Assembly (NCBI GenBank): GCA_019638615.1
Contig: JAHBTL010000028.1
Location: 1-64,000 of the forward strand
DNA from: Chitinophagaceae bacterium
Lineage (GTDB): Bacteria; Bacteroidota; Bacteroidia; Chitinophagales; Chitinophagaceae
Direction of reading: 5' to 3'
Length of the DNA: 64,000 bases
Made by a program: the position numbers and the translations under genes. Below are positions 33,590 through 47,757 of this stretch, piece by piece; within the stretch, counting starts at the first letter, position 1, and each line of letters opens with the position of its first letter. The notes beneath the pieces were generated by a model. That model did no database searches. It had not been told where the DNA came from and saw only the letters and a list, made by a program, of their open reading frames with translations.

Positions 33590-34840
33590 TCACATCTTTC
33601 CTGTCATCATTTTATTCCAGTACAGCCACGGCAGTCCGTATTTTTTAAGAAGCCACATACTGTATTGCTCTTTGGTAGTATCCATGAATTTGCTGAGCAG
33701 GGGGTCGCTGTCGCGTACATTCCCATATTTGAATTCTGCCAGCAGCATTTTACCATAACCGGTTACCAGGGGACAGGAAGAATATCCATTATATTGTTTA
33801 GTACCGGAATGATGGTTGATCGCCGCCAGCAGTTGGTCTACCACCACGGGCGCCTGCTTGCGGATGGCAGCGCCGGTTTTGGCTGTAGGCAGGGCGGCAA
33901 CATCGCCCAGCGCATATACATTGCCGTATACCTTGTGCTGTAATGTATAATGATCTACCTCGATCCAGCCTTTATTGGCTCCTTCTTTCGCAGACAACGG
34001 GGAGGACTGTATAAACGCCGGGGCAGCCTGCGGCGGCGCCAGGTGCAGCATATCATAAGGCATTGCTACAAGCCCGTCATCACCCATTACTTCACTTATT
34101 GCCTGTTCTGCCTGCCAGGGCTGGTCTTTTTTATACTGGTAATAAATCATTCTTTTCTGCGCATCTATTTTTACAGGAGTATAAAACAGCTTCAGGATCA
34201 CCTGTTTCCGTTCTATTACTTTATGAAGTGTGTCTGCAAATTCTTTCGTGCCAAATAGCACAGTGCCCGGCGTGGCGAATACTACATTCGTTTTACCTCT
34301 CACTTTATTTTTCCTGAAGTAATCATCGGCCAGGTACATTATTTTTTGAGGAGCGCCGCCGCATTTAATCGGCGTAGCAGGCTGTGTAAATACCGCGTTG
34401 CCTCCTTTGAATGATTGCAGCACTTTCCAGGTTTTATCCGGATCTATGTAGTTGCTGCATACCACCTCTGTTTCCATGGCTTCTTTCAGTCCCGGCAAGG
34501 CTTCCATATCCATAACCAGGCCCGGGCATACTACCAGGTAATCATAAGTAAACGCACCTGAACCTGCCGTTGCAACGGTGTTTTGATCCGGGTTGATCTT
34601 CACAGCTTTATCCCGTATCCACTCCACACCCTGTGGAATGAGGGAAGATTCATCTCTCCGGGTTTTGGCAAAATCAAACGTTCCGGCCCCCACCAAAGTC
34701 CAGGCGGGTTGATACCAGTGGTTGCCCGATGGCTCAATAATACCAACGGAAATACCAGGCTGCTTTCTTTTCAATTGCGCGGCCACCATGATCCCGGCTG
34801 TACCGCCACCAATAATTAGTACCTGAAAATGTACACTCAT
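33590..34840 (-). CDS. sqr: Sulfide:quinone oxidoreductase-like flavoprotein
   Basis: The 416-residue protein of the type II (SQOR-like) branch oxidises sulfide and reduces quinone at the inner face of the membrane. Visible features: FAD-binding G-G-G-T-A-G (11-16), redox cysteines Cys160 (I-K-C-G-G-A-P-Q-K) and Cys356 (S-S-C-P-L-V-T), an additional Cys128, and a second dinucleotide block L-G-D-V-A (311-315). A C-terminal amphipathic region ends W-L-Y-W-N-K-M-M. It is separated by 75 bp from the rest of the sulfur operon, with its own Crp/Fnr site. Family known; in vivo role inferred. Confidence 0.9.
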   Translation of the reverse strand: MSVHFQVLIIGGGTAGIMVAAQLKRKQPGISVGIIEPSGNHWYQPAWTLVGAGTFDFAKTRRDESSLIPQGVEWIRDKAVKINPDQNTVATAGSGAFTYDYLVVCPGLVMDMEALPGLKEAMETEVVCSNYIDPDKTWKVLQSFKGGNAVFTQPATPIKCGGAPQKIMYLADDYFRKNKVRGKTNVVFATPGTVLFGTKEFADTLHKVIERKQVILKLFYTPVKIDAQKRMIYYQYKKDQPWQAEQAISEVMGDDGLVAMPYDMLHLAPPQAAPAFIQSSPLSAKEGANKGWIEVDHYTLQHKVYGNVYALGDVAALPTAKTGAAIRKQAPVVVDQLLAAINHHSGTKQYNGYSSCPLVTGYGKMLLAEFKYGNVRDSDPLLSKFMDTTKEQYSMWLLKKYGLPWLYWNKMMTGKM

Positions 34841-34885
34841 ACGGCAATGATTTATGCAAATTTCCGGTTACGCATCGTGATCAAG

Positions 34886-34901
34886 TGTGACCTTGATCAC
34901 A
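34886..34901 (-). promoter_or_regulatory. Crp/Fnr-type site upstream of sqr
   Basis: A perfect TGTGA-N6-TCACA palindrome, nested in a 9-bp inverted repeat (GTGATCAAG 34877-34885, CTTGATCAC 34892-34900). A -7-like GAAATTTG (34857-34864, minus strand) follows, its G 36.5 bp from the site centre. This places the site near -41.5 relative to the expected start. Confidence 0.65.
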
Positions 34902-34915
34902 TGAAACGAATTATT

Positions 34916-35134
34916 TTATTCTGATTTTCTCTCGCTGCTTTTTACTTCTTTTTTATTGCTGCTAAACAGTGAGAACAGCAGTCCGCCCATCAACGCTCCG
35001 TATAAAGTACTGTTAACCGGGCGGGAAGTGATGGCGCAGGTTCCCGAATGACAACCAATGAAATGGTAATACAGGTAACCGCCCGCAGCTCCTGCAAGCA
35101 CGCCTGCCACAATGAGTATTGTATTCTTTTTCAC
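34916..35134 (-). CDS. DUF6132-family small membrane protein
   Basis: 72 residues with an N-terminal transmembrane segment (I-L-I-V-A-G-V-L-A-G-A-A-G-G-Y-L-Y-Y), a Cys-x4-Cys pair (C-H-S-G-T-C), a second hydrophobic segment (about 46-62) and a charged tail. DUF6132 members occur with YedE and rhodanese genes in Bacteroidota. The paired cysteines may handle sulfur (inference). It overlaps the upstream DUF2490 stop by 4 bp. Confidence 0.8.
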   Translation of the reverse strand: MKKNTILIVAGVLAGAAGGYLYYHFIGCHSGTCAITSRPVNSTLYGALMGGLLFSLFSSNKKEVKSSERKSE

Positions 35135-35865
35135 GAAGAAGTTTTTATATTTCTTTTAAAATCAATTATCATGTTCAGGAACAGAATGTGTTCCCTCCGG
35201 ATAAAGGAATCGCCGGGCAGCAGCCGGCTTATATAAATATATCCGAGCTCCACATTATAGTGCTTACCGAACTGCTTATTGACAGATGCCGAAAGCCGGC
35301 TATGATCAAATATATGACCGGGAGTTGTGCCGCTCATATTCAACAATTCTTCTCCTTGTAAAGTTATCTTATAATGTTTGTTAATTTCATAGTCTGCGCT
35401 TAACCGCGCTCTGCCACGCACGATGTCGTTACCAACGCTAAAGTTCCTGTATTCCGTCATTATGCGACTACCGATAGCAAGCTTTTTAGTAACAGGTTGC
35501 TTAAAACTAACACCCAGGGTTGAACGAAATTCAGACTGTGGTTTTTTTCCGGCATCTTCTTTATTTTTTATTACACTGTACAAAGAGTAATACGCTATGG
35601 GAGATGCATCTATCCTTATGTTTTGATTGAAAGAATAATATACCCAGGGGCGTACGGAATTCAACAGCTCATTATGAAAAGGATTGTTACTGCTGTACCC
35701 CTGCTGCCGGCGATGCTGCCATTCTATATCTGTCATCCATTTTTCAGAGAAATAATACCTGCCGGTCATGCGAAACCATGTGTTTATATGCGTCTGGGCA
35801 TTCAACCGCACAGGCATATATATGCCCGATAATACAACAACAGCAATACGCAACCTGTTTCTCAT
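35131..35865 (-). CDS. DUF2490 outer-membrane barrel protein
   Basis: 244 residues with a signal peptide (V-V-L-S-G-I-Y-M-P-V-R-L-N-A-Q) and the DUF2490 pattern: W-F-R-M-T-G-R-Y, E-W-Q-H-R-R-Q-Q, R-P-W-V-Y-Y. It probably forms a small outer-membrane barrel. Its position inside the sulfur operon suggests a porin for a sulfur compound, which is inference only. It is coupled to DUF6132 by an ATGA overlap. Confidence 0.8.
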   Translation of the reverse strand: MRNRLRIAVVVLSGIYMPVRLNAQTHINTWFRMTGRYYFSEKWMTDIEWQHRRQQGYSSNNPFHNELLNSVRPWVYYSFNQNIRIDASPIAYYSLYSVIKNKEDAGKKPQSEFRSTLGVSFKQPVTKKLAIGSRIMTEYRNFSVGNDIVRGRARLSADYEINKHYKITLQGEELLNMSGTTPGHIFDHSRLSASVNKQFGKHYNVELGYIYISRLLPGDSFIRREHILFLNMIIDFKRNIKTSS

Positions 35866-35909
35866 TCATCTGTGTTTTGCCTTTGAACCTTTTTGTACAA
35901 CACGCATCT

Positions 35910-36512
35910 TCATTCAGGCTCAGCCCCTGCAGCGGTGATCTTCCATAATCCCCTTAACATACCCGCAGTATAGTTCAGGGCTTTGTCATCGGGGTATATC
36001 TCTTTCAGCTTTTTAAGCGTACCGGCTTCTATATCTTTATCCGGGTCTCCATGACATTTTAAACAGGTAGGCATACCAATAACAATAGGCTTGTAATAAG
36101 CCAATGCCCCTTTTGCTTCTGTTCCTGTAATGCCGGGCGGAATAGAATCTTTTTTTGCCATCGCCTGTTCAAAGCGCTGCCATACCGCGGAATCCATCGC
36201 CGTTTTCAGAACGTTTGCTGCATTGCGGGGTTTATTGGTAATACGCGTTATAACAAGATCATGCGCTTTAGACACGGAATCGGTTAATGCCAGGGCTTTC
36301 TGACTGCAAAACTCAACAGCATACTCAGTACCCCCTTTTTGTATGGCCGCCGATACTTCTTTTAAAAGCGCCTGCTGGGCAATGCCCGACAGTTGGGCGG
36401 CCGTTTCAGTGAATTGCTGCAGGTCTTTTTCCTGCTTTACAGGTTCAACCTGGTTATTGCAGCTTATTGCTACAAGCAACAGCCACGCATAATACCTGGT
36501 ATACTTTGGCAT
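35910..36512 (-). CDS. DUF3365 (Tll0287-like) haem lipoprotein
   Basis: 200 residues: leader ending in lipobox V-A-I-S-Cys18, then a helical sensor-like DUF3365 domain with a single haem c motif Cys150-L-K-Cys153-His154. Tll0287-like proteins bind haem and are proposed redox sensors or electron carriers. As a membrane-anchored periplasmic cytochrome in a sulfide operon it could accept electrons from sulfur oxidation or sense redox state (inference). Confidence 0.83.
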   Translation of the reverse strand: MPKYTRYYAWLLLVAISCNNQVEPVKQEKDLQQFTETAAQLSGIAQQALLKEVSAAIQKGGTEYAVEFCSQKALALTDSVSKAHDLVITRITNKPRNAANVLKTAMDSAVWQRFEQAMAKKDSIPPGITGTEAKGALAYYKPIVIGMPTCLKCHGDPDKDIEAGTLKKLKEIYPDDKALNYTAGMLRGLWKITAAGAEPE

Positions 36513-36522
36513 ATATTATAAT

Positions 36523-37041
36523 TTAGTGTGGCAATTTCTCCCTTAATTTACCATACACCCAGGTGCCGGCAACGGCACTCAGCAATACTGCTATTACTAC
36601 CGTGGCGCCCATACCAATCTGCGCAAATAACGGTCCCGGACAAGCGCCTGTTAATCCCCAGCCCAATCCAAAAATCAGGCCTCCATAAATCTGTCCTTTA
36701 TTAAACTTTTTAGAAGTAAATGCAATGGGTTCGCCATACATTGTTTTTATGTTGAGCTTTTTTATTAACCATACAGACAAAATACCAACCGCCATGGCCG
36801 ACCCGATAATGCCATACATATGAAAAGACTGCAGCCGGAACATTTCCTGTATACGAAACCAACTGATCACTTCCGCTTTTACAAATACGATCCCGAATAA
36901 TATACCTACTATAAGATATTTGATATTATGATACCACTTGTGTTCGAGCCCTGACTCATTGACACAAACTGTATCCTGCGCCCGTACCTCAAAATCCGTA
37001 TCCTGTGCTTTTAATTTTCTTGTATTGTTCTCTCTTACCAT
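36523..37041 (-). CDS. YeeE/YedE half-transporter (DUF6691 type)
   Basis: 172 residues with four hydrophobic segments and the family signature G-W-G-L-T-G-A-C-P-G-P, whose Cys is thought to pass thiosulfate-type sulfur through the membrane. An unusual polar N-terminal 35 residues precede the first helix. It pairs with the half at 37051-37611 (gap 9 bp). Together they match one full TsuA-like thiosulfate importer. Confidence 0.87.
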   Translation of the reverse strand: MVRENNTRKLKAQDTDFEVRAQDTVCVNESGLEHKWYHNIKYLIVGILFGIVFVKAEVISWFRIQEMFRLQSFHMYGIIGSAMAVGILSVWLIKKLNIKTMYGEPIAFTSKKFNKGQIYGGLIFGLGWGLTGACPGPLFAQIGMGATVVIAVLLSAVAGTWVYGKLREKLPH

Positions 37042-37050
37042 GTTTTGTGT

Positions 37051-37611
37051 TTATTGAAGTATAACGGGCAGTATCAGGTTTGCCATAATAAATCCACCTG
37101 CCATAAAACAAATGGTTGCCACCAGCGACGGCCATTGCAGGGTGCTCAGTCCCATGATAGCGTGCCCGCTTGTACAACCGCCGGCATAGCGCGATCCGAA
37201 GCCGACAAGGAACCCTCCGCCCACCATCATGGCCAGTCCTTTGCCTGTAAGCAGGTTTTCCCAACTGTACAATTGCACAGGTACCATATTGCTGTAGTCG
37301 TTAATGCCATATCCTTCCAGTTCTTTTACCAGGTTAGGATTTACTACCACAGGGCCAGGATGGTTGAATAACCAGAAAGTAAGTATTCCGCCCAGGAAAA
37401 TACCTGCTACAAAAAACAGGTTCCATATCTCTTTTTTATAATCATATTTAAAAAAAGGAATATTGGCCGGGAAGCAGGTAGCGCATGCATGACGGAGATT
37501 GGCTGAAATCCCAAAATGTTTATTCCCTAAAATAAGCAATGCCGGAACCGTAAGCCCTATCAATGGGCCCGCTATATACCAGGGCCAGGGTTGCATTAAA
37601 AATTCAGCCAT
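37051..37611 (-). CDS. YeeE/YedE half-transporter
   Basis: 186 residues with five or so hydrophobic segments and the motif F-G-S-R-Y-A-G-G-C-T-S-G-H, the second conserved Cys site of YeeE/YedE. An extra C-A-T-C pair lies near residue 43. The gene begins 3 bp after the rhodanese stop, so the two are co-transcribed. Imports thiosulfate or a related sulfur species by family knowledge; the actual species is unproven. Confidence 0.87.
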   Translation of the reverse strand: MAEFLMQPWPWYIAGPLIGLTVPALLILGNKHFGISANLRHACATCFPANIPFFKYDYKKEIWNLFFVAGIFLGGILTFWLFNHPGPVVVNPNLVKELEGYGINDYSNMVPVQLYSWENLLTGKGLAMMVGGGFLVGFGSRYAGGCTSGHAIMGLSTLQWPSLVATICFMAGGFIMANLILPVILQ

Positions 37612-37614
37612 TCG

Positions 37615-37926
37615 TTACAGTATTTTTTTGTTTAATGAATTCCATGCTCCCCCGTTAAATGTAATAAGCCCATGCTCCGATAAAACATTCTTTGCCGCCC
37701 CGCTCCTGTTACCGCTTCTGCAGCAGGTGATGATTTTTTTATTTTTGCTTTTCAGGCTGGCAATATGGCGTTGCATTTCGTCAAGAGGAATATTAATGCT
37801 TCCTTCTATATGCCCGCCTGCAAATTCTGCCGGAGAACGCACATCTATAATGAGCGCCCCTTCTTTAATCAACGATTTAAAATCTTCCGGGCTTTTTTTC
37901 CCGAATAATGCTGATAGAATACCCAT
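37615..37926 (-). CDS. Rhodanese-domain protein
   Basis: 103 residues making a single rhodanese domain: I-I-D-V-R-S-P-A-E-F, G-H-I-E-G-S-I-N-I-P, and active-site loop Cys69-R-S-G-N-R. The Cys carries persulfide. Cytoplasmic, no signal peptide. First gene of the sulfur operon; a Crp/Fnr site lies 51-66 bp before its ATG. Confidence 0.9.
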   Translation of the reverse strand: MGILSALFGKKSPEDFKSLIKEGALIIDVRSPAEFAGGHIEGSINIPLDEMQRHIASLKSKNKKIITCCRSGNRSGAAKNVLSEHGLITFNGGAWNSLNKKIL

Positions 37927-37976
37927 GAGTGTTTATTTATTCTTTTGCAAAGATGATGGAGGAAAAAAAGACCAGG

Positions 37977-37992
37977 AGTGACTTATATCACA
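37977..37992 (-). promoter_or_regulatory. Crp/Fnr-type site upstream of the sulfur operon
   Basis: TGTGA-N6-TCACT on the minus strand, one mismatch from the symmetric consensus. A -7-like CATCTTTG (37948-37955) lies with its G 36.5 bp from the centre, the same spacing as at sqr. Confidence 0.55.
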
Positions 37993-38105
37993 CCCCTGCA
38001 AACTTCCCGGTTCTCACTTTTTATGCGGCTTTGAACGCTAAGCCTGACGTGTATATACCCCTGCATGTAGAAAACGCCGGCTACAAAAACAAAACACGCT
38101 TGCGC

Positions 38106-38424
38106 CGTCATTGCGGTCCCGACCACCCCGACTTTCGGGGGGAGAAGCAGCCCCCGCAGTGGGCAACTGCTTTCTTTCCGCGAGGATTGCTTCGCCGCTG
38201 TGAAAGCAATTGATGGTTTAATTTTTGATTCGGCGACTCGCAAAGACGTTCACGTGGTTGAGTAAAACCCAGGCTTTTCCTGAGTGCTGTCAGTAAAAAA
38301 GAAACCGCTTACGCGTCCCTGCGAGACCGCTTGTATGAACCTTTGAATTGAACGAATGTTTCGGCGGGCGAAGCAGCCCTCGCAGCAGGAAAAATGCAGC
38401 CCAACGAAGATGGCTTCTCCCGCC
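38106..38424. repeat. Two palindromic intergenic repeats
   Basis: The first unit runs from CGTCATTGCG (38106-38115) to CGCAAAGACG (38239-38248), nearly perfect inverted ends. The second is GGCGGGCGAAGCA (38363-38375) against GGCTTCTCCCGCC (38412-38424). Both share the internal word GAAGCAGCCCYCGCAG, so they belong to one dispersed family. They account for most of the 719-bp gap before the endonuclease Q gene; I see no gene there. Confidence 0.55.
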
Positions 38425-38553
38425 AGAGCATTGATCTAACTTCAACTTGAATAAAAGCGGGATCGCCATGACGGGTAAAAGGTTGATGATTCTGTAACTT
38501 TCACGATCATTCAGGGTTAGAAATGATCCATTTTCCCGCCAGGGGCCGCCCAA

Positions 38554-38606
38554 AAACCTATGAGGTTTGCCGCACGGCTTTTCTTTCCTGCAAACCTCGT
38601 AGATTT
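38554..38606. repeat. AAACCTATGAGGTTTGC inverted repeat
   Basis: Arms at 38554-38570 and 38590-38606 match at 15 of 17 positions around a 19-base loop. Such repeats recur in Bacteroidota intergenic DNA. It ends 39 bp before the endonuclease Q ATG and may affect that promoter. Confidence 0.6.
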
Positions 38607-38645
38607 AGCATATGGAAAAGCTAATAATTTTAGTAATTTCGTGCC

Positions 38646-39914
38646 ATGTTGTATATTGCCGATCTTCATACACACTCTCACTATGCCGCGGCTACGAGTA
38701 AATTCCTTTGCCTCGAGACCATGTACCAGTGGGCGTTAATAAAAGGGATTGATGTGGTGAGCACGGGCGACTTCACCCATCCCGCATGGATACGGGAGCT
38801 GGAGGAAAAGCTGCAACCCGCCGGTAACGGGTTTTACACATTAAAGCATACTCCTGAATTGAAGGAATTGCCGGGAGCCACTCCGGCCGGCAGAACGGTT
38901 TATTTTTGTTTGTCTACAGAGGTGAGTTGCGAATACATTATTAAAGGCAAACAATACAAAAATCATCACCTCATCTATGCACCCGACTTCGAAACTGCGC
39001 GTCTTGTTAACAAAGCGCTGAGTCCGTATGGCGATCTGTCGCTGGACGGCAGGCCTACCCTACACCTGCAGGCACATGAATTACTGAAGATCGTATTGGC
39101 GGTGTCACCCCATGTGCGTTTTATCCCGGCACATATCTGGACCCCGTGGTATTCGGCGCTGGGCGGTATGAACGGGCACGACTCCCTGCAGGATTGCTTT
39201 AAGGATGTTACGGGTGAATTGTTTGCGGTAGAAACCAGCCTGTCTGCCGATCCGCGTATGTGCCGCAGGTACACGGAGCTTGACCATCTTACATTGGTCT
39301 CTAATTCGGATGCCCATTCTGCATGGAAGCTCGGGCGCGAAGTAAACCTCTTTAATGCCGAACTGGGTTACGATGCCCTATTCCATGCGATTAAAACAAA
39401 GCAGGGCTTTTCCGGCACCTGGGAGTATTACCCGCAGCGTGGTAAGTATTATAACGACGGGCACAGGAACTGTAAAATTTCGGTAAGCGCAAAAGAAGCA
39501 AATGCCGGCATTTGTCCCGTGTGTAGCAGACCCTTAACCATTGGCGTGGCGCACAGGGTAGAGCAGCTTTCCAACCGCACGGAGCCGGAAACAGAAGGCA
39601 ATTTTCAATCTTTCCAATATGTACTGCCCTTACCGGAAATACTGGGCGAGATCATGGGCTTTAGTGAAACCAGCAAAGCGGTTGAAAAGAAATACGCACA
39701 GGCAATCTCTTATTTCGGAAATGAGTTCGATTTGTTAATGCATACACCTGTTGAAGATATCCGCCGGTTTCATCCCACGCTCGCCATTGCCATAGAGCGG
39801 CTTCGCAAGGATGAAAAACGTTTCACCCCGGGATATGACGGCGAGCATGGCCGGATCTGGTTCTTTAACGAGGGTGAGCTGAAAAGAAAACCGGAGCAGG
39901 CAACGTTGTTTTGA
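38646..39914 (+). CDS. Endonuclease Q-family PHP-domain protein
   Basis: 422 residues. The PHP metal-site motifs are D6-L-H8-T-H10 and S-N-S-D-A-H (219-224). A zinc-finger segment (H273, Cys276, Cys290, Cys293) and a helical C-terminal part follow. This matches EndoQ, which nicks 5' of deaminated bases (uracil, hypoxanthine) and abasic sites. EndoQ was described in Thermococcales archaea and occurs in scattered bacteria. A -7-like TAATTTCG ends four bases before the ATG. Confidence 0.85.
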   Translation: MLYIADLHTHSHYAAATSKFLCLETMYQWALIKGIDVVSTGDFTHPAWIRELEEKLQPAGNGFYTLKHTPELKELPGATPAGRTVYFCLSTEVSCEYIIKGKQYKNHHLIYAPDFETARLVNKALSPYGDLSLDGRPTLHLQAHELLKIVLAVSPHVRFIPAHIWTPWYSALGGMNGHDSLQDCFKDVTGELFAVETSLSADPRMCRRYTELDHLTLVSNSDAHSAWKLGREVNLFNAELGYDALFHAIKTKQGFSGTWEYYPQRGKYYNDGHRNCKISVSAKEANAGICPVCSRPLTIGVAHRVEQLSNRTEPETEGNFQSFQYVLPLPEILGEIMGFSETSKAVEKKYAQAISYFGNEFDLLMHTPVEDIRRFHPTLAIAIERLRKDEKRFTPGYDGEHGRIWFFNEGELKRKPEQATLF

Positions 39915-39980
39915 TGCCGGTCGCACATCTGCCAAACGCAATGTTATGCGTTCGTACCTGTTATCAGCACTCATTAATTT

Positions 39981-41489
39981 TTATTTTTTCAACAACTCCT
40001 CTAAGAAGTTTTTTCCGTTTTCATTGTCCGGATTTAGTTTAACAGATTTACGATACATAAAAATAGCTTCATTTTTCTTTCCTGTTTTTGCCAATGCCTC
40101 GCCATAGCTATCATAACTATTAAAGCTATTGGGAAATAATAAGATGTTTTGTTTCAAGACTTCTAAAGCAAGTTCACTATGTCCGTTGAATGTCGCCGCA
40201 TAAAGAAGCTGCAAGCCTAAATCATTCATATCCTCTTCATTTAGATAATAATGAGAAGTATCGTCTTTCAATTCCTGAAATTTGATAAAGGCGATGTCAA
40301 CTCCTTTCTCAACTAAAGTACTACCGTAAATTTTCGTCAACGATTGTTTTGAAATAGATACAGGCTTGTTGTTAAGAATATTCATTGCATTTAAACCATT
40401 TTGATGAAGGCTTCTGTTAAATGTGTTATCAAAGAGAATAACCGTTTGTTTTTTGTCAATGTTTCGCACTAAAATGCTCAACGCACCGGGAACACCCCCT
40501 GTATGCCCGACAATTTTTCCTTTTGAACTGTCTGATGCAATAAACCAGCCTAAGCCATAAGATGCTTTTTCTCCTCCAAAAACCGTTTGCGTTAGTTGTC
40601 CATTATTTAATTTGTTAGGTGCGAATGCTTCATTCAACGATGCTTGTTTAATTAATCTTCCTGTGTAAAGCGCCTGGTCAAATTTCAACATATCGCCGGT
40701 AGTTGATATAATATTGCCATTACCAACGAAGCCACTTAAACTCAACATTCTTACCCTGTATCTTTTTATGCTATCAACGTTTTCTAATTCGGTAGAAAAA
40801 AGAAAAGGGTAATCATAATCAACTACGCGATTTTTGTTTTCCATTTGTGTAATGTCATTTTGAAAATAGGTACTTGTCATTTTTGCGGGACTAAAGATGT
40901 TTTTTTGTAAATATTCTTGAAAAGTAAGACCGGAAACTTTTTCTACAAGTAATGCTAATAAAATGTAATTAGCATTAGTGTACTGATATTTGTCATTTGG
41001 CTTAAAGGCTAAAGGCTGGTTTATTTTTTTTAAGGTGGGCAAAAAGTCCTTATTTGTAAAAACTTTATTTGGATTCTCTTTTACCTGTTGCCTGAAAATT
41101 TCTATTTCGGGTAAGCCGGATGTATGGGTAAGCAAATGCCGGATAGTAATTTCAATATAGGGGAAATCCGGGAAATATTTAGCTACAAAGTCATCTAATC
41201 TTAATTTTCCCTTTTCCTTAAGTTGTAAAATGGCGGTTGATGTAAATATTTTTGAAACCGAAGCCAGAGAAAAACCTGAGTATTCATTATTAGGCATCCT
41301 GGTTTTAAAATTTGAATAACCAAATGACTTTTGATAAACCGGTTGTCCGTTTTCCGCAACAAGAACATTCCCGTTTATCTGCCCATAAGTATGAAGCGAA
41401 TTAAAGAAACTGTCTAATTTTTGGGCATTGGTTTGGGCATATGCTATTGTGCCAATAAGTAAAAAAAGGAACAGAAATGTCAGTTTCAT
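39981..41489 (-). CDS. Serine hydrolase (class C beta-lactamase/PBP-like) with TPR tail
   Basis: 502 residues: signal peptide ending A-Y-A-Q, catalytic Ser77-V-S-Lys80, Tyr-x-Asn in K-Y-Q-Y-T-N, and H-T-G-G. The last 90 residues form TPR-like helices (L-A-L-E-V-L-K-Q-N...A-L-A-K-T-G-K-K-N-E-A). It is a secreted peptidase or esterase of the AmpC-like fold; antibiotic hydrolysis cannot be claimed. Divergent from the membrane-bound regulator at 41627. Convergent with the EndoQ gene. Confidence 0.85.
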   Translation of the reverse strand: MKLTFLFLFLLIGTIAYAQTNAQKLDSFFNSLHTYGQINGNVLVAENGQPVYQKSFGYSNFKTRMPNNEYSGFSLASVSKIFTSTAILQLKEKGKLRLDDFVAKYFPDFPYIEITIRHLLTHTSGLPEIEIFRQQVKENPNKVFTNKDFLPTLKKINQPLAFKPNDKYQYTNANYILLALLVEKVSGLTFQEYLQKNIFSPAKMTSTYFQNDITQMENKNRVVDYDYPFLFSTELENVDSIKRYRVRMLSLSGFVGNGNIISTTGDMLKFDQALYTGRLIKQASLNEAFAPNKLNNGQLTQTVFGGEKASYGLGWFIASDSSKGKIVGHTGGVPGALSILVRNIDKKQTVILFDNTFNRSLHQNGLNAMNILNNKPVSISKQSLTKIYGSTLVEKGVDIAFIKFQELKDDTSHYYLNEEDMNDLGLQLLYAATFNGHSELALEVLKQNILLFPNSFNSYDSYGEALAKTGKKNEAIFMYRKSVKLNPDNENGKNFLEELLKK

Positions 41490-41626
41490 ATTAAAATTTA
41501 TTTAAGCTATTAATTTGAGCCCCAAAACTACCTACTACTTAGAGTCTTATTTCTATAGAAAACCTTTTGTTTAGCTATAGATATCTCAAAAGCTTTCCTT
41601 ATTCAGTAGTTTCGCTAAAAATTGCT

Positions 41627-42301
41627 ATGGAGCGTATTTTTTTTGTCTTAAATAATTGTTTTTTGGTTGATGGTTCGGTCAACCTCCTCACTAATCTTGA
41701 AACTGGATTGCAGACTAAGCTGGAACCCAGGTTAATAGAAATATTAGACATTCTTGTAAAAAATGAAGGAAAACTGGTTAGCAGAGAAATGCTCATTTCG
41801 AAAATATGGAACAATTATGGAGGTGCAGATGATGGTCTAAATCAAGGAATTTCAATTCTGCGAAAATCGCTTGCCGACACCAATAAACAAATAATTGAAA
41901 CCGTTCCAAAGAAAGGTTATATACTTCACGCTACCGTTACCAATGATCTAAATGTTAAAGAAGAGTGGCCTCAAAGTGAAAAAGCTATAAAAAAGCAACC
42001 GGTTTTTTTAGCAATATTTTTAGGGGGTGCATTTATTTTGATATTCCTGTTTCTGTTTAATTTAGGAAAAAACAAAATCTCCGATAGATTAGAAAAGCAA
42101 CCAGATTTTCTTTTAAAATCAGGTTCTACAGTATCAAAAAATTGGCATGGAAAAAATTACAAACTTGCATTTGGCAAAGACGAAAAAATTATTCTTTTTG
42201 AGAACAACATTCAAATAGCAGACAGTAATCTTATAAACTATGAAATAGTTATTCAAGAACTTAAAGACAAACTTACTAGTGAACAAGATGCAAATAGATA
42301 A
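41627..42301 (+). CDS. ToxR-like membrane-bound winged-helix regulator
   Basis: 224 residues from ATG 41627. An OmpR/PhoB-type DNA-binding domain covers about 1-105 (L-V-S-R-E-M-L-I-S-K-I-W, V-P-K-K-G-Y-I-L). One transmembrane helix follows (about 125-147) and a short periplasmic domain. The ToxR/CadC layout suggests signal sensing through the membrane. A TTG at 41567 extends the frame but adds no family residues. Adjacent to and divergent from the serine hydrolase, its likely target. Confidence 0.82.
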   Translation: MERIFFVLNNCFLVDGSVNLLTNLETGLQTKLEPRLIEILDILVKNEGKLVSREMLISKIWNNYGGADDGLNQGISILRKSLADTNKQIIETVPKKGYILHATVTNDLNVKEEWPQSEKAIKKQPVFLAIFLGGAFILIFLFLFNLGKNKISDRLEKQPDFLLKSGSTVSKNWHGKNYKLAFGKDEKIILFENNIQIADSNLINYEIVIQELKDKLTSEQDANR

Positions 42302-42355
42302 TGGTGTGATTATTTAAGATCATCCCCAAAATATGGAAGTTGTTCCACTATAATG

Positions 42356-42667
42356 TTATATTAATGTTGCATTGTTTTGTAATAAAGGGTATACTCCTAT
42401 AAGCTGATCACCGTTCAAATGCTTTATAAGCTGGTCATCCGTAAGCGGTAAATATTTTTTGTCAGTGTATGATTGAAAAGTACCACCTTTCATCTTATGG
42501 GCCTTGTATCGGTAAGGGTCATACAAATAAGCAGGCATATACCCGCTCTTTCCTTCCCCGCCCGGAGAACCGGTGGGTATTTCCCAACGAGTTGCAAATA
42601 CGTCTTCCCGGCCTTTGAAAAGGGAGCGGAATAGCTGTAACCTTCTATCAATGGCTGGTTCCGGCAA
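42356..42667 (-). pseudogene. Fragment of a TOTE conflict-system primase (AEP) gene
   Basis: About 100 residues match the start of the archaeo-eukaryotic primase domain of TOTE proteins: L-F-R-S-L-F-K-G-R-E-D-V-F-A-T-R-W, then G-K-S-G-Y-M-P-A-Y, L-P-L-T-D-D-Q-L-I-K-H-L-N-G and L-I-G-V-Y-P-L-L. The frame stops right after, where W-F-(I/L)-A-x-D-F-D should follow, so catalytic and helicase parts are gone. The leftmost codon is TTG, and the frame is open upstream to about 42760. It abuts a truncated norE, so both look cut by one deletion. Confidence 0.72.
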
Positions 42668-42753
42668 ATCGGTAATTCGTTTTTAACCTTTCTACTTTTA
42701 TTCGTTTAAAAGAAACCGAAAGCCAATTCATCAAAGGCTTAACCTGGCACATA

Positions 42754-42981
42754 TCAGATCATCACAACATCAGCTTCTTTTAGCAATAAAAACACGGTGT
42801 TAACAGCGGCGATTGTTTTGTTCAGCGACTGGCTGTCGCTGTGAAACTGCGCTCTTTCCGCCATTCCGTAATAACCCAAAGCGATCATGGCGGCGCCAAA
42901 TGTGATCAGCTCCAGGTAAATGACGATCCAGATCAGAATGCCGCCGGGGGGATAAAAGATGGATTTGTAATTTATTTCCAC
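42754..42981 (-). pseudogene. norE: norE-like gene (cytochrome oxidase subunit III family), truncated
   Basis: From GTG 42981, ten bases after the norD stop and behind GGAG, the sequence reads F-Y-P-P-G-G-I-L-I-W-I-V-I-Y-L-E-L-I-T-F-G and later N-T-V-F-L-L. This is the first helix of NorE/cytochrome-oxidase-III-like proteins. After L-L the match stops and the frame ends within ten codons. Full proteins are about 190-200 residues with five or more helices. The remainder is missing, not shifted into another frame that I can see. Confidence 0.72.
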
Positions 42982-42991
42982 TCCAACAGTT

Positions 42992-44758
42992 TTACTGGTA
43001 TTTAATTTTCTCGTACAGCTTTGCCAGCGATTGCAGCAATGCTTCGGGCGATGTCAGTATCTGGTAATGATGTTGCCCGAACATTTGCGGCAGATAATAT
43101 TTGGCCTGTGCTTCAATAGCCAACGCATAGGAGTTGATCCTGCGTTCGTTCAACTCCCTCAATGCCTGCTTGATATCCTGTATGCCGTGCTGTCCTTCGT
43201 ATTTATCGTAATCATTGGGCTTGCCATCGGATAATACAATGATCCATTTGTTCCTGGCGGGCTGCCTGTCCATACGTGCCCCCGCGTGACGCAGGGCCGG
43301 GCCGATCCTGGTATACCCGCCGGGCTCTGCCGCACCGATCCGTAATTTGGCTGTGTCCCAGCTTTCGTTAAAATCTTTCAGCGTAAGGTAAGTGGTATAG
43401 TTCCTGGTTTTGGAATAGAATCCGTCAATGGCAAAATCAATATCAAATTCATGCAGTATTTCACTAAACAAAATTGATACTTCCTTTTCCACATCTATCA
43501 CGCGGTTCCCGGCAGCATAGCCGTCGCTTGACAGGCTGATATCGAGTAAGACCAGTATTGCGATATCCTTTTCTTTTTTCCGTTGGGAAAAATAGATCCT
43601 TTCATCGGGCGATACCCCGGAATGAATGTCGGTATACATGTCCGTGAGCGCATCCAGGTCAAATGTTTCGCCCTGCAATTGCCTTCTCTGCTGCAACAGC
43701 CTGTTATTCACACTGGTCAGCATTTTCCGCAAACCATTTAAAACAGTTTTATACTTTGCGATGGTATGATTGTAATAAGATGCCTGCGTTGTTAGCTGCG
43801 TTTTAGGGTACACTTTGCAGAAGCCGGGCAGGTAAGCCCGTTTTTTAAAATCCCATTCATCGTATTTCAGGTGAAAGCCTTTTTCATCCACTTCGGCACT
43901 CTCCGCAAGAGATGTGTTCTCTACAAAATCCGCCTGGTAAACAGAGTGCACCGTATTATCAACCCTTACCGTAAACCGCATGTCCATTCCCTCCAGGGCT
44001 TCCTGGTGACTTTCCAGCTCATCTTTCCCGTCAAAGTCCCGCCAGTTACCGTTAAACGACTCGGCTGTTTCTATTTTTTCAAAGCTGTGCATCAGCACAT
44101 AGTCTTCCTGCTGCTTTTTATCAATGGTCAACGATGCTATTTCCTCCACTGCTTTTGCCTGCAAGGTCGTTTTGGCTTCTATTTTGTTTTGAAGCGTGGG
44201 AGTAGTATCGTCAAAGTTTTTCAGGTTGTCTGTATGCTCTACGCCGGAAGCATTTTTCATCCATTTGCCATACAGCCAACTGTAGTCCGGGGTTGCATCT
44301 TTTTTATGGAGCGGCAACCGGGGTATTGCTGCTGAATGCCATTCCTGCAGGGAAGGATATTCCGTGAACATTTTTTTCAATACCAGCGGGGCCGTTTCTT
44401 TTGCTTTCTGTAAAGATTGCTCAGAAGTATATGCTTCCTCCTGCCAGTTGAGGTGCAGTTGTTGCTGAATGCATAAATAAACCGTTCTGAAAATATAGAA
44501 TCGCAGGTTTTCTTCTTTACTGCGGAAGAGGGAGCAATGAGCGGGAAGGAAAAAATTACGATCCTTATACCCGCCTTCCCTTTCGGCGGGAAAAATGTCG
44601 ACAGGTGCGGCACAAATTGCCCGTGCGAGCAAGGTCAGCCTGGGCTTGATATCCGACAGGCTTACCTGGCGGCTTAATACATCGGCATTGTTAAGTCGTC
44701 TTTTCTTAAAATATTTTAAAACCTTCGCGTATAGCAGCTCATCTAATTCTACACCCAT
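42992..44758 (-). CDS. norD: NorD, nitric-oxide reductase activation protein
   Basis: 588 residues. The C-terminal von Willebrand A domain has the MIDAS L-D-I-S-L-S-S near residue 395 and V-L-S-D-G-K. NorD works with the ATPase NorQ to insert or mature cofactors of NorB. Ten bases separate it from norQ upstream. Length and position are typical. Confidence 0.88.
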   Translation of the reverse strand: MGVELDELLYAKVLKYFKKRRLNNADVLSRQVSLSDIKPRLTLLARAICAAPVDIFPAEREGGYKDRNFFLPAHCSLFRSKEENLRFYIFRTVYLCIQQQLHLNWQEEAYTSEQSLQKAKETAPLVLKKMFTEYPSLQEWHSAAIPRLPLHKKDATPDYSWLYGKWMKNASGVEHTDNLKNFDDTTPTLQNKIEAKTTLQAKAVEEIASLTIDKKQQEDYVLMHSFEKIETAESFNGNWRDFDGKDELESHQEALEGMDMRFTVRVDNTVHSVYQADFVENTSLAESAEVDEKGFHLKYDEWDFKKRAYLPGFCKVYPKTQLTTQASYYNHTIAKYKTVLNGLRKMLTSVNNRLLQQRRQLQGETFDLDALTDMYTDIHSGVSPDERIYFSQRKKEKDIAILVLLDISLSSDGYAAGNRVIDVEKEVSILFSEILHEFDIDFAIDGFYSKTRNYTTYLTLKDFNESWDTAKLRIGAAEPGGYTRIGPALRHAGARMDRQPARNKWIIVLSDGKPNDYDKYEGQHGIQDIKQALRELNERRINSYALAIEAQAKYYLPQMFGQHHYQILTSPEALLQSLAKLYEKIKYQ

Positions 44759-44768
44759 TACTCCCGTT

Positions 44769-45554
44769 TTATATCATCAGATCGCAGAGGTCTTTTAAAG
44801 CCCGGATGGTTTCCTCCTCATCCGTTAAAGGCTCCACTACCGCTACGTGCACCGCCAGGCGTTTGGGCAAACCGCTATGGATCAGTTTGGCCGCATCTAC
44901 CAGCAACCTGGTGGAAACGGTTTCCGTCAGTCCCAGCTCGGTAAGGTTCCTGATCTTATTACCGATGGCAACCAGCTTTTGGGCTACCTCTTTTTGCACA
45001 CCTGTTTCGGCTACCAGTATTTCCGCTTCCACTTTCGGTGGCGGATAACCGAAAGACAAGGCCACAAAACGTTGCCGGGTGGAAGGCTTCAGCTCTTTAA
45101 ACCCTTTTTGATACCCGGGGTTGAAGGAGGCTACCAGCAAAAAATCGGGGTGCGCCCGGACAGTCTCTCCCAATTTATCAATAAAAAGCTCCCTGCGGTG
45201 ATCGGTAAGCGAATGAATGGCGACGATCACATCGGGGCGGGCTTCTGCTATTTCATCGAGGTATAAAATATATCCATGTTTAACAGCCATTGTAAGCGGC
45301 CCGTCTATCCAGATGGTTTCAGCGCCTTTGATAATAAACCGTCCGATGAGGTCGGTAGAGGAGGTTTCCTCGTGACAGCTTACCGTTATCAGCTTTTTGT
45401 CGAGCTCATTAGCCATATATTCCACAAAGCGGGATTTGCCCGACCCGGTGGGGCCTTTGAGCAATAAGGGTAGCTTCAATTCATTTACATGGTTAAAAAC
45501 TTCTACCTCCGTGCCGATGGCTTTATAAAAAACAGTATGTTCTGCTACTATCAT
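44769..45554 (-). CDS. norQ: NorQ, MoxR-type AAA+ ATPase
   Basis: 261 residues of the CbbQ/NirQ/NorQ family: Walker A G-P-T-G-S-G-K-S (34-41), Walker B L-Y-L-D-E-I-A, and S-T-R-Q-R-F sensor region. Needed for assembly of active nitric-oxide reductase. A terminator-like hairpin lies between norB and norQ, so it may be expressed at a lower level than norCB. Confidence 0.9.
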   Translation of the reverse strand: MIVAEHTVFYKAIGTEVEVFNHVNELKLPLLLKGPTGSGKSRFVEYMANELDKKLITVSCHEETSSTDLIGRFIIKGAETIWIDGPLTMAVKHGYILYLDEIAEARPDVIVAIHSLTDHRRELFIDKLGETVRAHPDFLLVASFNPGYQKGFKELKPSTRQRFVALSFGYPPPKVEAEILVAETGVQKEVAQKLVAIGNKIRNLTELGLTETVSTRLLVDAAKLIHSGLPKRLAVHVAVVEPLTDEEETIRALKDLCDLMI

Positions 45555-45570
45555 ATTGATCTGTTTATTT

Positions 45571-45618
45571 TAAAAAAAACCGGAACCGAATGTAGGCTGA
45601 AGAACTTCCGGCTCCGGT
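45571..45618 (-). terminator. Terminator between norB and norQ
   Basis: On the minus strand a 10-bp stem with one mismatch (arms at 45609-45618 and 45579-45588) is followed by eight T residues (complement of the A-run 45572-45579). It should end or attenuate transcription after norB. Confidence 0.6.
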
Positions 45619-45647
45619 AGTTATTGATATTAGCTGCCATGTTAAGA

Positions 45648-46988
45648 TCAATAACTTTTTACCTCCAACGCTTCATCTGTAGGTCTTCCATATTTAATAA
45701 ATTCCAGTATATACAGCAGGATGCCTGTAGCAAAAAGAGTAGCGCAGAGCAGCAATACCACAAAGTGAATGCTGATCTCGTTCTGCACTTCCATGAACTC
45801 CATTTTCATTTTACGTTCCATATACACCTGCGCAACGCCTGCCACGCCAAATGCCACCGTCATGCCCAGCATGCCGATATTAGAAAGCCAGAAGGCCATA
45901 TGACCGCTCGTTTTATCATAACGTTTCCTGCCGGTTACATTGGGTAAAGCATAACTTATGATGGCCAACACAATCATGGCGTATGCACCCCAAAAAGCAT
46001 AGTGACCATGCATAGCAGTTACCAGTGTGCCGTGCGTGTAAATATTGGTTTGCGGCAGCGTATGCGCAAAACCCAGCAAACCGGCGCCGATAAAGGAAAC
46101 AATGGAAGCGCCGATGGTCCAGAACAGTGCTATCTTATTGGGATGGGATTTCTCTCCTTTGCGATACATATATACCGCGAATAACGCCATACCTAAAAAA
46201 GCCAGGGGTTCCAGGGCAGAAAAGATCCCGCCGACGATCAGCCATATCTTATTCACGCCTATATAATAATAGTGGTGCCCTGTGCCCAGCAGGCCAGACA
46301 GGAACGTTAAGCCTACGATTACATACAACCATTTTTCTATCACTTCACGGTCTACCCCGGTCAGCTTGATCAGTAAGTAAGAGAGGATGCCACCCATGAT
46401 CAGCTCCCACACGCCTTCTACCCACAGGTGCACCACCCACCAGCGGAAAAAGGAATCCATCACCTGGCTGTCGAACCAGATCATGCCGGGCAGGTAAAGC
46501 AGGGCCGCGAATACCAGTCCCATCGTTAACACCAGGGCGGTAGTGGTTTTTCTTTTCCCTTTAAAAAGCGTGGCTAAAATGAGCCCGAGGAACAGCAGCA
46601 CATTTACTACCACCAGGTAATCCAGCTCTCTCGGGATCTCGAGGAATTTTCTTCCTTCCCAATGATTAAAATGATACCCGACAATTGCCGCCACGCCCAC
46701 CAATGCAAGCGATATCAGCTGTACATAGGCCAGCTTTACACTCACCAGCTCCCGCTGCGCTTCTTCCGGGATAATATAATAGGCAGCGCCCATAAAGCCG
46801 GTAAGCAGCCACACCACCAGTAAATTGGTATGTACCGCTCTTGCCGTATTAAAAGGAATAACATTGTGAAGGCCATCCCACCCAATGCGGGCAAAGCCCA
46901 TGATAAAGCCATACACGATTTGCAGGGCAAACAATAGCATACACAATCCAAAGAACCAGTACGCTACTTTTTGTGATTTGTATTTCAT
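45648..46988 (-). CDS. norB: Nitric-oxide reductase subunit B
   Basis: 446 residues with about twelve transmembrane helices of the haem-copper oxidase superfamily: A-R-A-V-H-T-N-L-L-V-V-W, W-W-V-V-H-L-W-V-E-G-V-W-E, and H-G-H-Y-A-F-W-G-A-Y. The Glu-rich active-site pattern and shorter length fit cNorB rather than qNor, which agrees with a separate NorC. Reduces NO to N2O. Start is 18 bp after norC. Confidence 0.93.
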   Translation of the reverse strand: MKYKSQKVAYWFFGLCMLLFALQIVYGFIMGFARIGWDGLHNVIPFNTARAVHTNLLVVWLLTGFMGAAYYIIPEEAQRELVSVKLAYVQLISLALVGVAAIVGYHFNHWEGRKFLEIPRELDYLVVVNVLLFLGLILATLFKGKRKTTTALVLTMGLVFAALLYLPGMIWFDSQVMDSFFRWWVVHLWVEGVWELIMGGILSYLLIKLTGVDREVIEKWLYVIVGLTFLSGLLGTGHHYYYIGVNKIWLIVGGIFSALEPLAFLGMALFAVYMYRKGEKSHPNKIALFWTIGASIVSFIGAGLLGFAHTLPQTNIYTHGTLVTAMHGHYAFWGAYAMIVLAIISYALPNVTGRKRYDKTSGHMAFWLSNIGMLGMTVAFGVAGVAQVYMERKMKMEFMEVQNEISIHFVVLLLCATLFATGILLYILEFIKYGRPTDEALEVKSY

Positions 46989-47006
46989 ATTTTTAAAAGA
47001 TTGAGA

Positions 47007-47441
47007 TTATTCTTTGTCTTTTGCCAACGGTGAAACAACACGTTCAAAGCCATTGAGGTCAATATTGCCGATCCATTTGAGATAGGCGATAACGGCTTCC
47101 GTATCTTCATCGTTCATTTCATATTTCACCATTTTCCGCCCTCTTGGTCCCCAGGGAATAGGCGACTGCAGTACCGCTTTTACGTAGCCTTCCCCCCTTC
47201 TTTCTATTACCTTGGTAAGCTCCGGCGCATAGTACCCCCCTTCTCCCAATATGGTATGACAGCCCATACAGTTATTGGCTTCCCATATCTGTTTTCCCCT
47301 AATCACATTCGCATCAATCTGATGGTGGTTTGTTTGATCGTTCTTCGGCTGGAACGAGTAAATCGTAAGCCCGATAAATATTAAAAATGTTACTACAGTA
47401 CCCCCCAGAAAGAAAGCCCTTGCCTGCGATTTAGATAACAT
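47007..47441 (-). CDS. norC: Nitric-oxide reductase subunit C (cytochrome c)
   Basis: 144 residues. One N-terminal membrane anchor (about 10-30) and a haem c motif Cys58-M-G-Cys61-His62, with Met ligand likely in the K-M-V-K-Y segment. Passes electrons to NorB. First gene of the operon, preceded by a Crp/Fnr-type site. Confidence 0.93.
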   Translation of the reverse strand: MLSKSQARAFFLGGTVVTFLIFIGLTIYSFQPKNDQTNHHQIDANVIRGKQIWEANNCMGCHTILGEGGYYAPELTKVIERRGEGYVKAVLQSPIPWGPRGRKMVKYEMNDEDTEAVIAYLKWIGNIDLNGFERVVSPLAKDKE

Positions 47442-47757
47442 AATTGTGAAGTTTAGTTAGTTTATTAAATGGATTGCAACACAGAAAGAACAAAGTAGTT
47501 TCCGGGAGCAAAGTAATTGCAGGAAGAACACCAACGGTTATGACCGAAGTCACACAATAAAAAGTAATAATTAACTATTGCGGGATTCTTTGAAAGGATA
47601 TCTGCGGAGCGGAATTGTTCAGCAAGTCTTTATTAATAACTTGTTCGGTTACCAGCCGCCCGGGAGTGTCTCTTATCAAATTATGTATTCCTGCACAAAT
47701 ACCCCATCATGGAGTTTTAAAGCCCCGGGGTTGTACAATATAAGTTAAAGCATTGAC
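47442..47757 (-). other. norC upstream region
   Basis: 316 bases without a gene. The norC promoter occupies 47509-47554 (Crp/Fnr site plus -7-like TTACTTTG at 47509-47516). The far part (about 47600-47757) shows nothing recognisable beyond a GC-rich patch after the M56 gene that may act as its terminator region. Confidence 0.45.
47539..47554 (-). promoter_or_regulatory. Crp/Fnr-type site upstream of norC
   Basis: TGTGA-N6-TCATA on the minus strand, one mismatch from consensus. Its centre is 37.5 bp from the G of the -7-like box at 47509. Activation of nor genes by Fnr/Dnr-family regulators is established in other bacteria. Confidence 0.6.

Follow-up and report, generated by a model that had tools for sequence, protein, structure and literature searches.

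Two Crp/Fnr box classes with one promoter architecture at sulfur and nitric oxide reductase genes of a Chitinophagaceae bacterium and its relatives, and a likely regulator of the sulfur regulon

Three promoters and their genes

The Chitinophagaceae bacterium of assembly GCA_019638615.1 harbors genes for sulfur handling and for nitric oxide (NO) reduction on one contig, JAHBTL010000028.1, and three promoters there carry palindromes of the Crp/Fnr type. We have analyzed these sites in a stretch of 64,000 nucleotides (the window, contig C21 of the host genome G000, which comprises 7.18 Mb in 87 contigs). All features of the window described here lie on the minus strand, and gene functions were assigned by homology. 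A sqr-like gene (33590..34840) encodes a putative sulfide:quinone reductase (SQR) whose similarity to type III SQR (3.6e-66) stays below the curated NCBIfam cut-off. The predicted sulfur-type operator before it, TGTGATCAAGGTCACA in gene direction, lies at 34886..34901 and is followed by the -7-like element GAAATTTG (34857..34864). The second predicted sulfur-type operator, TGTGATATAAGTCACT (37977..37992), and its -7-like element CATCTTTG (37948..37955) precede a rhodanese operon. This gene run consists of a single-domain rhodanese (37615..37926, PF00581), a Sulf_transp (YeeE/TsuA-like) half transporter (37051..37611), a second Sulf_transp/DUF6691 half transporter (36523..37041), a Tll0287-like protein (35910..36512, PF11845) and a DUF2490 protein (35131..35865, PF10677). 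Elsewhere in the host a second Sulf_transp half transporter copy, 68% identical, is found at G000:C22:20996-21550. The third palindrome, TGTGACTTCGGTCATA (47539..47554), with the -7-like element TTACTTTG (47509..47516), lies before a norC-like gene for the cytochrome c subunit of NO reductase (47007..47441, PF00034). It is a predicted hybrid operator with a sulfur-type upstream half and an NO-type downstream half. The norC-like gene is followed by norB-like (45648..46988, PF00115; catalytic subunit), norQ-like (44769..45554; AAA protein of the CbbQ/NirQ/NorQ kind) and norD-like (42992..44758; VWA protein) genes, and it is this gene order norCBQD on which the NO reductase call is based.

A first-pass annotation had described the three palindromes as operators placed for activation from about -41.5, and all three are present where it had placed them. 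The spacings it gave are exact as well: the operator centres lie 36.5, 36.5 and 37.5 bp from the last base of GAAATTTG, CATCTTTG and TTACTTTG, each of which is one mismatch off TAnnTTTG. A TAnnTTTG-like -7 element is the promoter type of Bacteroidota, where transcription starts lie 4-5 bases after it. The box centres would thus be located near -40.5 to -41.5 of the predicted starts, which is the position of a class II activator; CRP acts at class II promoters from near -41.5. Counts of the loose palindrome alone are close to chance. TGTGA-N6-TCACA with up to two mismatches is found 19 times in the window with 22.7 expected, hence without excess, and with up to one mismatch 103 times genome-wide against 92 in the reversed control, which is little excess. 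The case for these sites must therefore rest on conservation.

Two box classes in relatives and in the host genome

The search with norB kept 80 nor loci of Bacteroidota, and norC stands before norB in all of them. Sulfur loci were taken as the best 30 matches each for the transporter, SQR and a Crp/Fnr protein that we term CrpS, from 294 genomes of the family, and are not a random sample; 173, 171 and 262 of these genomes have a match to the three queries, respectively. Promoters were counted if at least 150 bp of upstream sequence was available and the match started by residue 12; counting distinct sequences leaves 160 of 164 sulfur promoters and 78 of 79 norC promoters, with one nor locus that lacks a norC start (L092) left out. 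In relatives, the palindrome is found again in front of both norC and sqr. Its core in most norC promoters is TGAY-N4-RTCA, and it usually lies 80-150 bp ahead of the gene. Within the last 160 bp of the norC promoters, ATGAY-N4-RTCAT is present in 50 of 78 and GTGAY-N4-RTCAC in none; hybrids with one A and one G half occur in four and classes with C in seven, one locus (L086) having two classes. The class expected for FNR or DNR, TTGAY-N4-RTCAA, is absent from these 78 promoters. The sulfur promoters give the opposite picture, with 61 of 160 holding GTGAY-N4-RTCAC, 14 the A/G hybrid and two ATGAY-N4-RTCAT. By distinct promoter, the GTGAY box is found before sqr in 19/30, TauE in 17/20, MBL-rhodanese in 13/28 (nine others are hybrids), the transporter in 5/33 and rhodanese in 3/18. 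Shuffled promoters contain on average at most 0.35 matches per box class and set, and shuffled norC promoters at most 0.1 per class. The difference between the G and A classes gives a Fisher p of about 4e-30, a value to be taken as indicative only, since the sets cover different taxa and contain related rows. Over their full length of 1.51 Mb, the 80 nor loci contain 136 ATGAY boxes and 4 GTGAY boxes.

The position of the boxes is conserved, too. For 42 of 65 sulfur boxes and 44 of 51 nor boxes, the distance between the box centre and the last base of a TAnnTTTG-like element (at most one mismatch) is 36.5 bp, while no other distance is shared by more than two sulfur boxes or eight nor boxes. 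These relatives strongly confirm the spacing argument of the earlier annotation and support activator-like placement relative to the predicted starts.

The sulfur promoters stem from a Chitinophagaceae-like family and the norC promoters mostly from Flavobacteriaceae and Cyclobacteriaceae, and part of the box difference could therefore be one of lineage. The host genome serves as the main lineage control, since both box types stand before their own genes there. GTGAY-N4-RTCAC occurs 20 times in the host compared to 10 in the reversed control. Five of the 20 are found no more than about 52 bp ahead of a start codon, namely those of sqr, the rhodanese operon, a TauE/SafE gene, an MBL-rhodanese gene and crpS, the last three boxes being consecutive at C78:62.7-64.4 kb. 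The remainder are inside open reading frames (ORFs; 13) or far from any start (2); the ORF of 94 amino acids (aa) that overlaps the rhodanese-operon box is spurious. At sqr, rhodanese and TauE a -7 element with at most one mismatch is positioned at 36.5 bp. Thus, the part of the earlier claim that put sqr and the rhodanese/transporter operon under one box type holds, and the two likely form one regulon. ATGAY-N4-RTCAT is found 40 times in the host (26 in the control), mostly inside ORFs. Sites near starts include those 54 bp before a run of cytochrome c, nosZ, nosL and nosD genes, 75 bp before nrdD and 87 bp before a Crp gene on contig C22; the latter site also falls into a long antisense ORF and has no -7 element near 36.5. 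At nos and nrdD, -7-like elements are spaced at 37.5 bp, as at norC.

An unbiased search for the sulfur regulon used GTGAY-N4-RTCAC-N22-TAnnTTTG over the 294 family genomes. It yielded 106 matches in 75 genomes, compared to 4 in the reversed control; the host itself has no mismatch-free match. The 106 places correspond to 104 distinct boxes; behind 99 of them an ORF of 55 aa or longer begins 3-150 bp past the -7 element, and behind 5 none does. Grouped by similarity, with the named clusters checked by Pfam on one or two representatives each, these ORFs encode outer-membrane efflux proteins (19), thioredoxins (13), YgaP-like transmembrane proteins (7), DUF983-type proteins (7), SQR (7), alpha/beta hydrolases (5), an exported protein of unknown family (4), MBL/rhodanese (4), OMPP1/FadL (3), and the transporter, OsmC, ArsR-type and ferritin-like proteins (2 each); the others are double or single. 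Taken together, this gene set looks like one of reactive-sulfur and thiol homeostasis. Several CrpS-like paralogues are present in many genomes, and hence not every sulfur box need be read by CrpS.

Some of these downstream genes deserve mention in their own right. Outer-membrane efflux and thioredoxin genes, the commonest targets across the family, are not among the promoter-placed boxes of the host. The exported protein starts 31-34 bp after the -7 element (L317, L319, L320, L384), with no Pfam match for L317 and a weak sorting-domain match for L384. The DUF983-type proteins (L327, L328, L330, L332, L376, L393, L413) carry a CPRCR motif; L327 matches PF06170, and L332 is without Pfam match. 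An ORF at L316 matched the nosZ query and was rejected as nosZ: it encodes a COX2-domain protein, is probably a cytochrome-oxidase gene and stands perhaps in a heme-copper oxidase cluster.

Candidate regulators

The host has six Crp/Fnr genes, and one of them, crpS (C78:62807-63451, 215 aa), is the candidate regulator of the sulfur class. The protein matches PF00027 (cNMP-binding) and PF13545 (Crp HTH) over cut-off. In 27 of 30 loci, all but L257, L268 and L278, a TauE, MBL-rhodanese or rhodanese gene comes after the gene of the CrpS relative. Its recognition helix is SSREVISR-like, with R-E-xxx-R (R180, E181, R185) conserved in 30/30 loci. Arginine at residue 180 is described to pair with G at half-site position 3, and serine or proline with T (PMC1274295). 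By this rule Arg180 of CrpS fits GTGA half-sites. Other Crps have different residues there, tyrosine in the host C22 protein, valine in C56 and P, S, A or I in the nor-linked ones, which fits a different base; however, the base found here is A and not T. Cys79 and Cys85 (Cys-x5-Cys) are present in 30/30 CrpS relatives, in 0/10 nor-linked Crps and in 0/5 other host Crps. Among solved structures the first-ranked sequence relative, 3dv8_A, aligns with CrpS at the same Cys-x5-Cys. A CRP-type reading helix combined with this invariant cysteine pair suggests that CrpS is probably a reactive-sulfur-responsive activator.

On the NO side, a 20-kb host stretch (L226, G000:C56:1-19999) brings together cytochrome c, nosZ, nosL, nosD, an ABC protein, two bacterial-globin-like genes and the Crp/Fnr gene C56, whose product has the helix R-V-E-T-V-I-R. 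Crps of the C56 type accompany nor in five loci. In L067, L099, L109 and L117 they stand next to a membrane protein of 405 aa, which matches Pfam MFS_1 weakly, and both are no farther than about 9 kb from norC or norD in the same 21-kb stretch; L061 lacks this neighbour. Some of these loci are from Flavobacterium. An ATGAY box is located within about 110 bp upstream of the conserved part of the C56-type Crp in L099, L109 and L117. Ten further loci, nine titled Cyclobacteriaceae and one Cryomorphaceae, have a different Crp/Fnr gene adjoining norC. The C56 gene is linked to both nos and nor, and the ATGAY box is common to both; reading of this box by the C56 protein would fit, and C56 is likely the NO regulator. 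Another host stretch (L224, G000:C23:50000-69999) has the Crp/Fnr gene C23 beside a nitrite/sulfite-reductase-type gene, a formate/nitrite transporter and a tetrapyrrole methylase, and contains no exact ATGAY or GTGAY box. A copper nitrite reductase (nirK) was not found over cut-off in the host, in a search that did not cover nirS, nar or nap. Sulfide-driven denitrification, as the first-pass annotation put it, is an inference.

One regulon or two, and the hybrid norC operator

We consider it quite probable that the three sites fall into two regulons of the Crp/Fnr type, one for sulfur and one for NO/anaerobic metabolism. The sites, their spacing and conservation, the box classes, the gene linkage and the residues are observed, and on these we would picture binding, activation, signals and the pairing of proteins with boxes as follows. 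CrpS would bind GTGAY-N4-RTCAC just upstream of the -7 element at the sqr and rhodanese promoters and turn on genes to oxidize sulfide, handle persulfide and transport sulfur, probably along with its own gene; reactive sulfur would likely be sensed by the Cys-x5-Cys pair. The norC site would by descent be an operator of a separate NO/anaerobic regulon with the box ATGAY-N4-RTCAT, which also precedes nos and nrdD in the host, and this box would most likely be read by an FNR/DNR-like Crp/Fnr protein of the type beside nos (C56). In the lineage of the host, one half of the norC operator is sulfur-type, so that CrpS may read norC too.

Other explanations have to be weighed against this two-regulon reading. 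That the palindromes arose by chance would be in line with the loose-pattern counts, which are not above expectation in the window and barely above control in the genome. Cross-species conservation before norC and the sulfur genes, the spacing, and the excess of box plus promoter over its control leave this idea with practically no weight, and we reject it. A carbon regulator of the cAMP-CRP type, which would have sulfur and nor genes merely among many targets, is very unlikely: the sulfur box equals the consensus core of E. coli CRP, but the five promoter-placed pure boxes of the host all belong to sulfur genes or crpS, and crpS, whose product carries a pair of invariant cysteines, is part of sulfur gene runs. 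For Flavobacteriales and Saprospiraceae, carbon-sensing (MalR-like) Crp/Fnr proteins have been predicted, and the excerpted text of that source reports no denitrification control by them (PMC8510549). The first-pass annotation itself had proposed that one Crp/Fnr regulator joins sulfide/thiosulfate metabolism with NO reduction. In favour of this model, the three promoters share their architecture and differ little in spacing, and norC has GTGAC as its upstream half. We regard it as distinctly unlikely, however. The two box classes are distributed in opposite ways and have different bases at the position recognized by residue 180, and different Crp/Fnr genes are linked to the sulfur and to the nor side. 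None of the 99 ORFs downstream of the sulfur box plus promoter matches norB, norC, norD, norQ or nosZ queries. A conserved neighbourhood of sulfur and nor genes was likewise rejected, as no tblastn match to six sulfur-cluster proteins was found in the flanks (up to 10 kb) of the 80 nor loci. The operator is therefore shared in part: sqr and the rhodanese operon have one box type, but norC has a hybrid of two types.

Several observations weigh against a clean separation into two regulons. No core match was found in 18/78 norC and 82/160 sulfur promoters; many of the latter probably belong to genes within operons. Four family members with more divergent norC lack the ATGAY box, L023 having two sites with one CTGAC and one ATGAC half instead, and no box was found in the norC promoters of L024-L026. 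Only 4/31 CrpS promoters have their own GTGAY box, and in the host neither crpS nor MBL-rhodanese shows a -7 element with at most one mismatch at 36.5 bp (MBL-rhodanese has one with two mismatches, crpS none). In two nor loci of Flavobacterium, L052 and L056, an incomplete CrpS-like Crp (34-35% identity) is found at the far edge, some 9 kb away from norC. There are three candidate NO regulators in the host (C22, C23 and C56), and an ATGAY box precedes the C22 gene, so that a protein other than C56 may read the NO box. At L316 (G235:C1:964411), one of the five boxes not counted among the 99, the sulfur box plus promoter is followed by a short ORF and, 169 bp downstream, by the COX2-domain gene, and this respiratory oxidase is a possible target of the sulfur box.

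The hybrid operator itself also blurs the boundary. The box of the window norC reads GTGAC-TTCG-GTCAT and that of L060, whose norB is 100% identical to the window norB, GTGAC-CCCC-GTCAT; the hybrid half-sites are unchanged while three of the four spacer bases differ. Hybrids at norC occur in L060, L086, L105 and L115, which makes four of the seven loci with Chitinophagales/Chitinophagaceae titles versus 0/72 others (Fisher p 2e-5, indicative only, as rows are related). On the norB tree the hybrid needs three changes, and well-supported branches force at least two. Among the 14 hybrids at sulfur promoters, nine stand before MBL-rhodanese; 12 have GTGA on the upstream half as at norC, and eight have the 36.5-bp spacing. 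These sulfur-promoter hybrids imply that CrpS may tolerate ATGA on the downstream half, and CrpS may also read the norC hybrid of the window. One could go further and assume dual control, with the sulfur regulator and the NO regulator both binding the hybrid operator such that norCB receives sulfide and NO signals. The retention of the half-sites between window and L060, the taxon-specific hybrids with their three changes and the same orientation at sulfur promoters argue for it. We would give dual control a modest chance, since norC has the 37.5-bp spacing of host nos and nrdD and not the 36.5 bp of sqr, rhodanese and TauE, a single A/G change is easy, four loci are few, L086 also holds a pure ATGAY box, and hybrids in the host genome do not exceed the control (27 vs 33). 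We retain the assignment of norC to the NO/anaerobic regulon as the preferred reading.

CrpS resembles E. coli CRP in its cNMP-binding and HTH_Crp_2 domains, the R180/E181/R185-type helix, the TGTGA-N6-TCACA operator and an operator position as for activation near -41.5. Unlike in E. coli, the linked targets are sulfur genes, the sensor domain has two invariant cysteines and the -7 elements are of the Bacteroidota type. The NO side is reminiscent of FNR, DNR and NnrR in that a Crp/Fnr protein is linked to nor and nos, and the C56 helix resembles V-E-T-I-S-R of FNR. Operators of FNR and DNR are of the TTGAY/TTGAT type, whereas the nor operator here is ATGAY-N4-RTCAT. CstR and FisR are further sulfane-sulfur sensors beside SoxR/sHdrR and SqrR/BigR of the ArsR family, with which CrpS has conserved cysteines and, putatively, sulfide/thiosulfate oxidation targets in common. 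They belong to other protein families, however, and sHdrR/SoxR are repressors, while CrpS is a Crp/Fnr protein with an activator-like operator position. The Hyphomicrobium sHdrR/SoxR system is described to also affect denitrification (PMC12423496). HcpR is likewise a Crp/Fnr protein with wTGTGAnnnnnnTCACAw sites, similar to the TGTGA-N6-TCACA type of CrpS, and in Desulfovibrio covers hcp-frdX and sulfate-reduction genes (PMC1274295). HcpR is linked to hcp there, whereas the genes linked to CrpS are those of TauE, MBL-rhodanese, rhodanese and sulfur transport (hcp was not searched for).

In summary, two probable regulons use the same promoter architecture, and the sulfur regulon is newly delineated together with a likely regulator. 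Among the matches listed in the open-licence PMC literature, none is a study of this sulfur operator or CrpS, or of the NO box of Bacteroidota. For a large bacterial family, the operator, the gene of its likely cognate regulator and the gene set for sulfide and persulfide handling are thereby defined, and for Bacteroidota a conserved box of the NO regulon is described. A more far-reaching and rather unlikely view would be that the hybrid nor operator of Chitinophagales integrates CrpS and the NO regulator, placing NO reduction under sulfide control by a change in one half-site, and that CrpS founds a family of persulfide-sensing Crp/Fnr activators. If the cysteine pair does sense reactive sulfur, the Crp/Fnr family would join the persulfide sensors, and the hybrid norC site makes the link between sulfide and denitrification directly testable on one operator.

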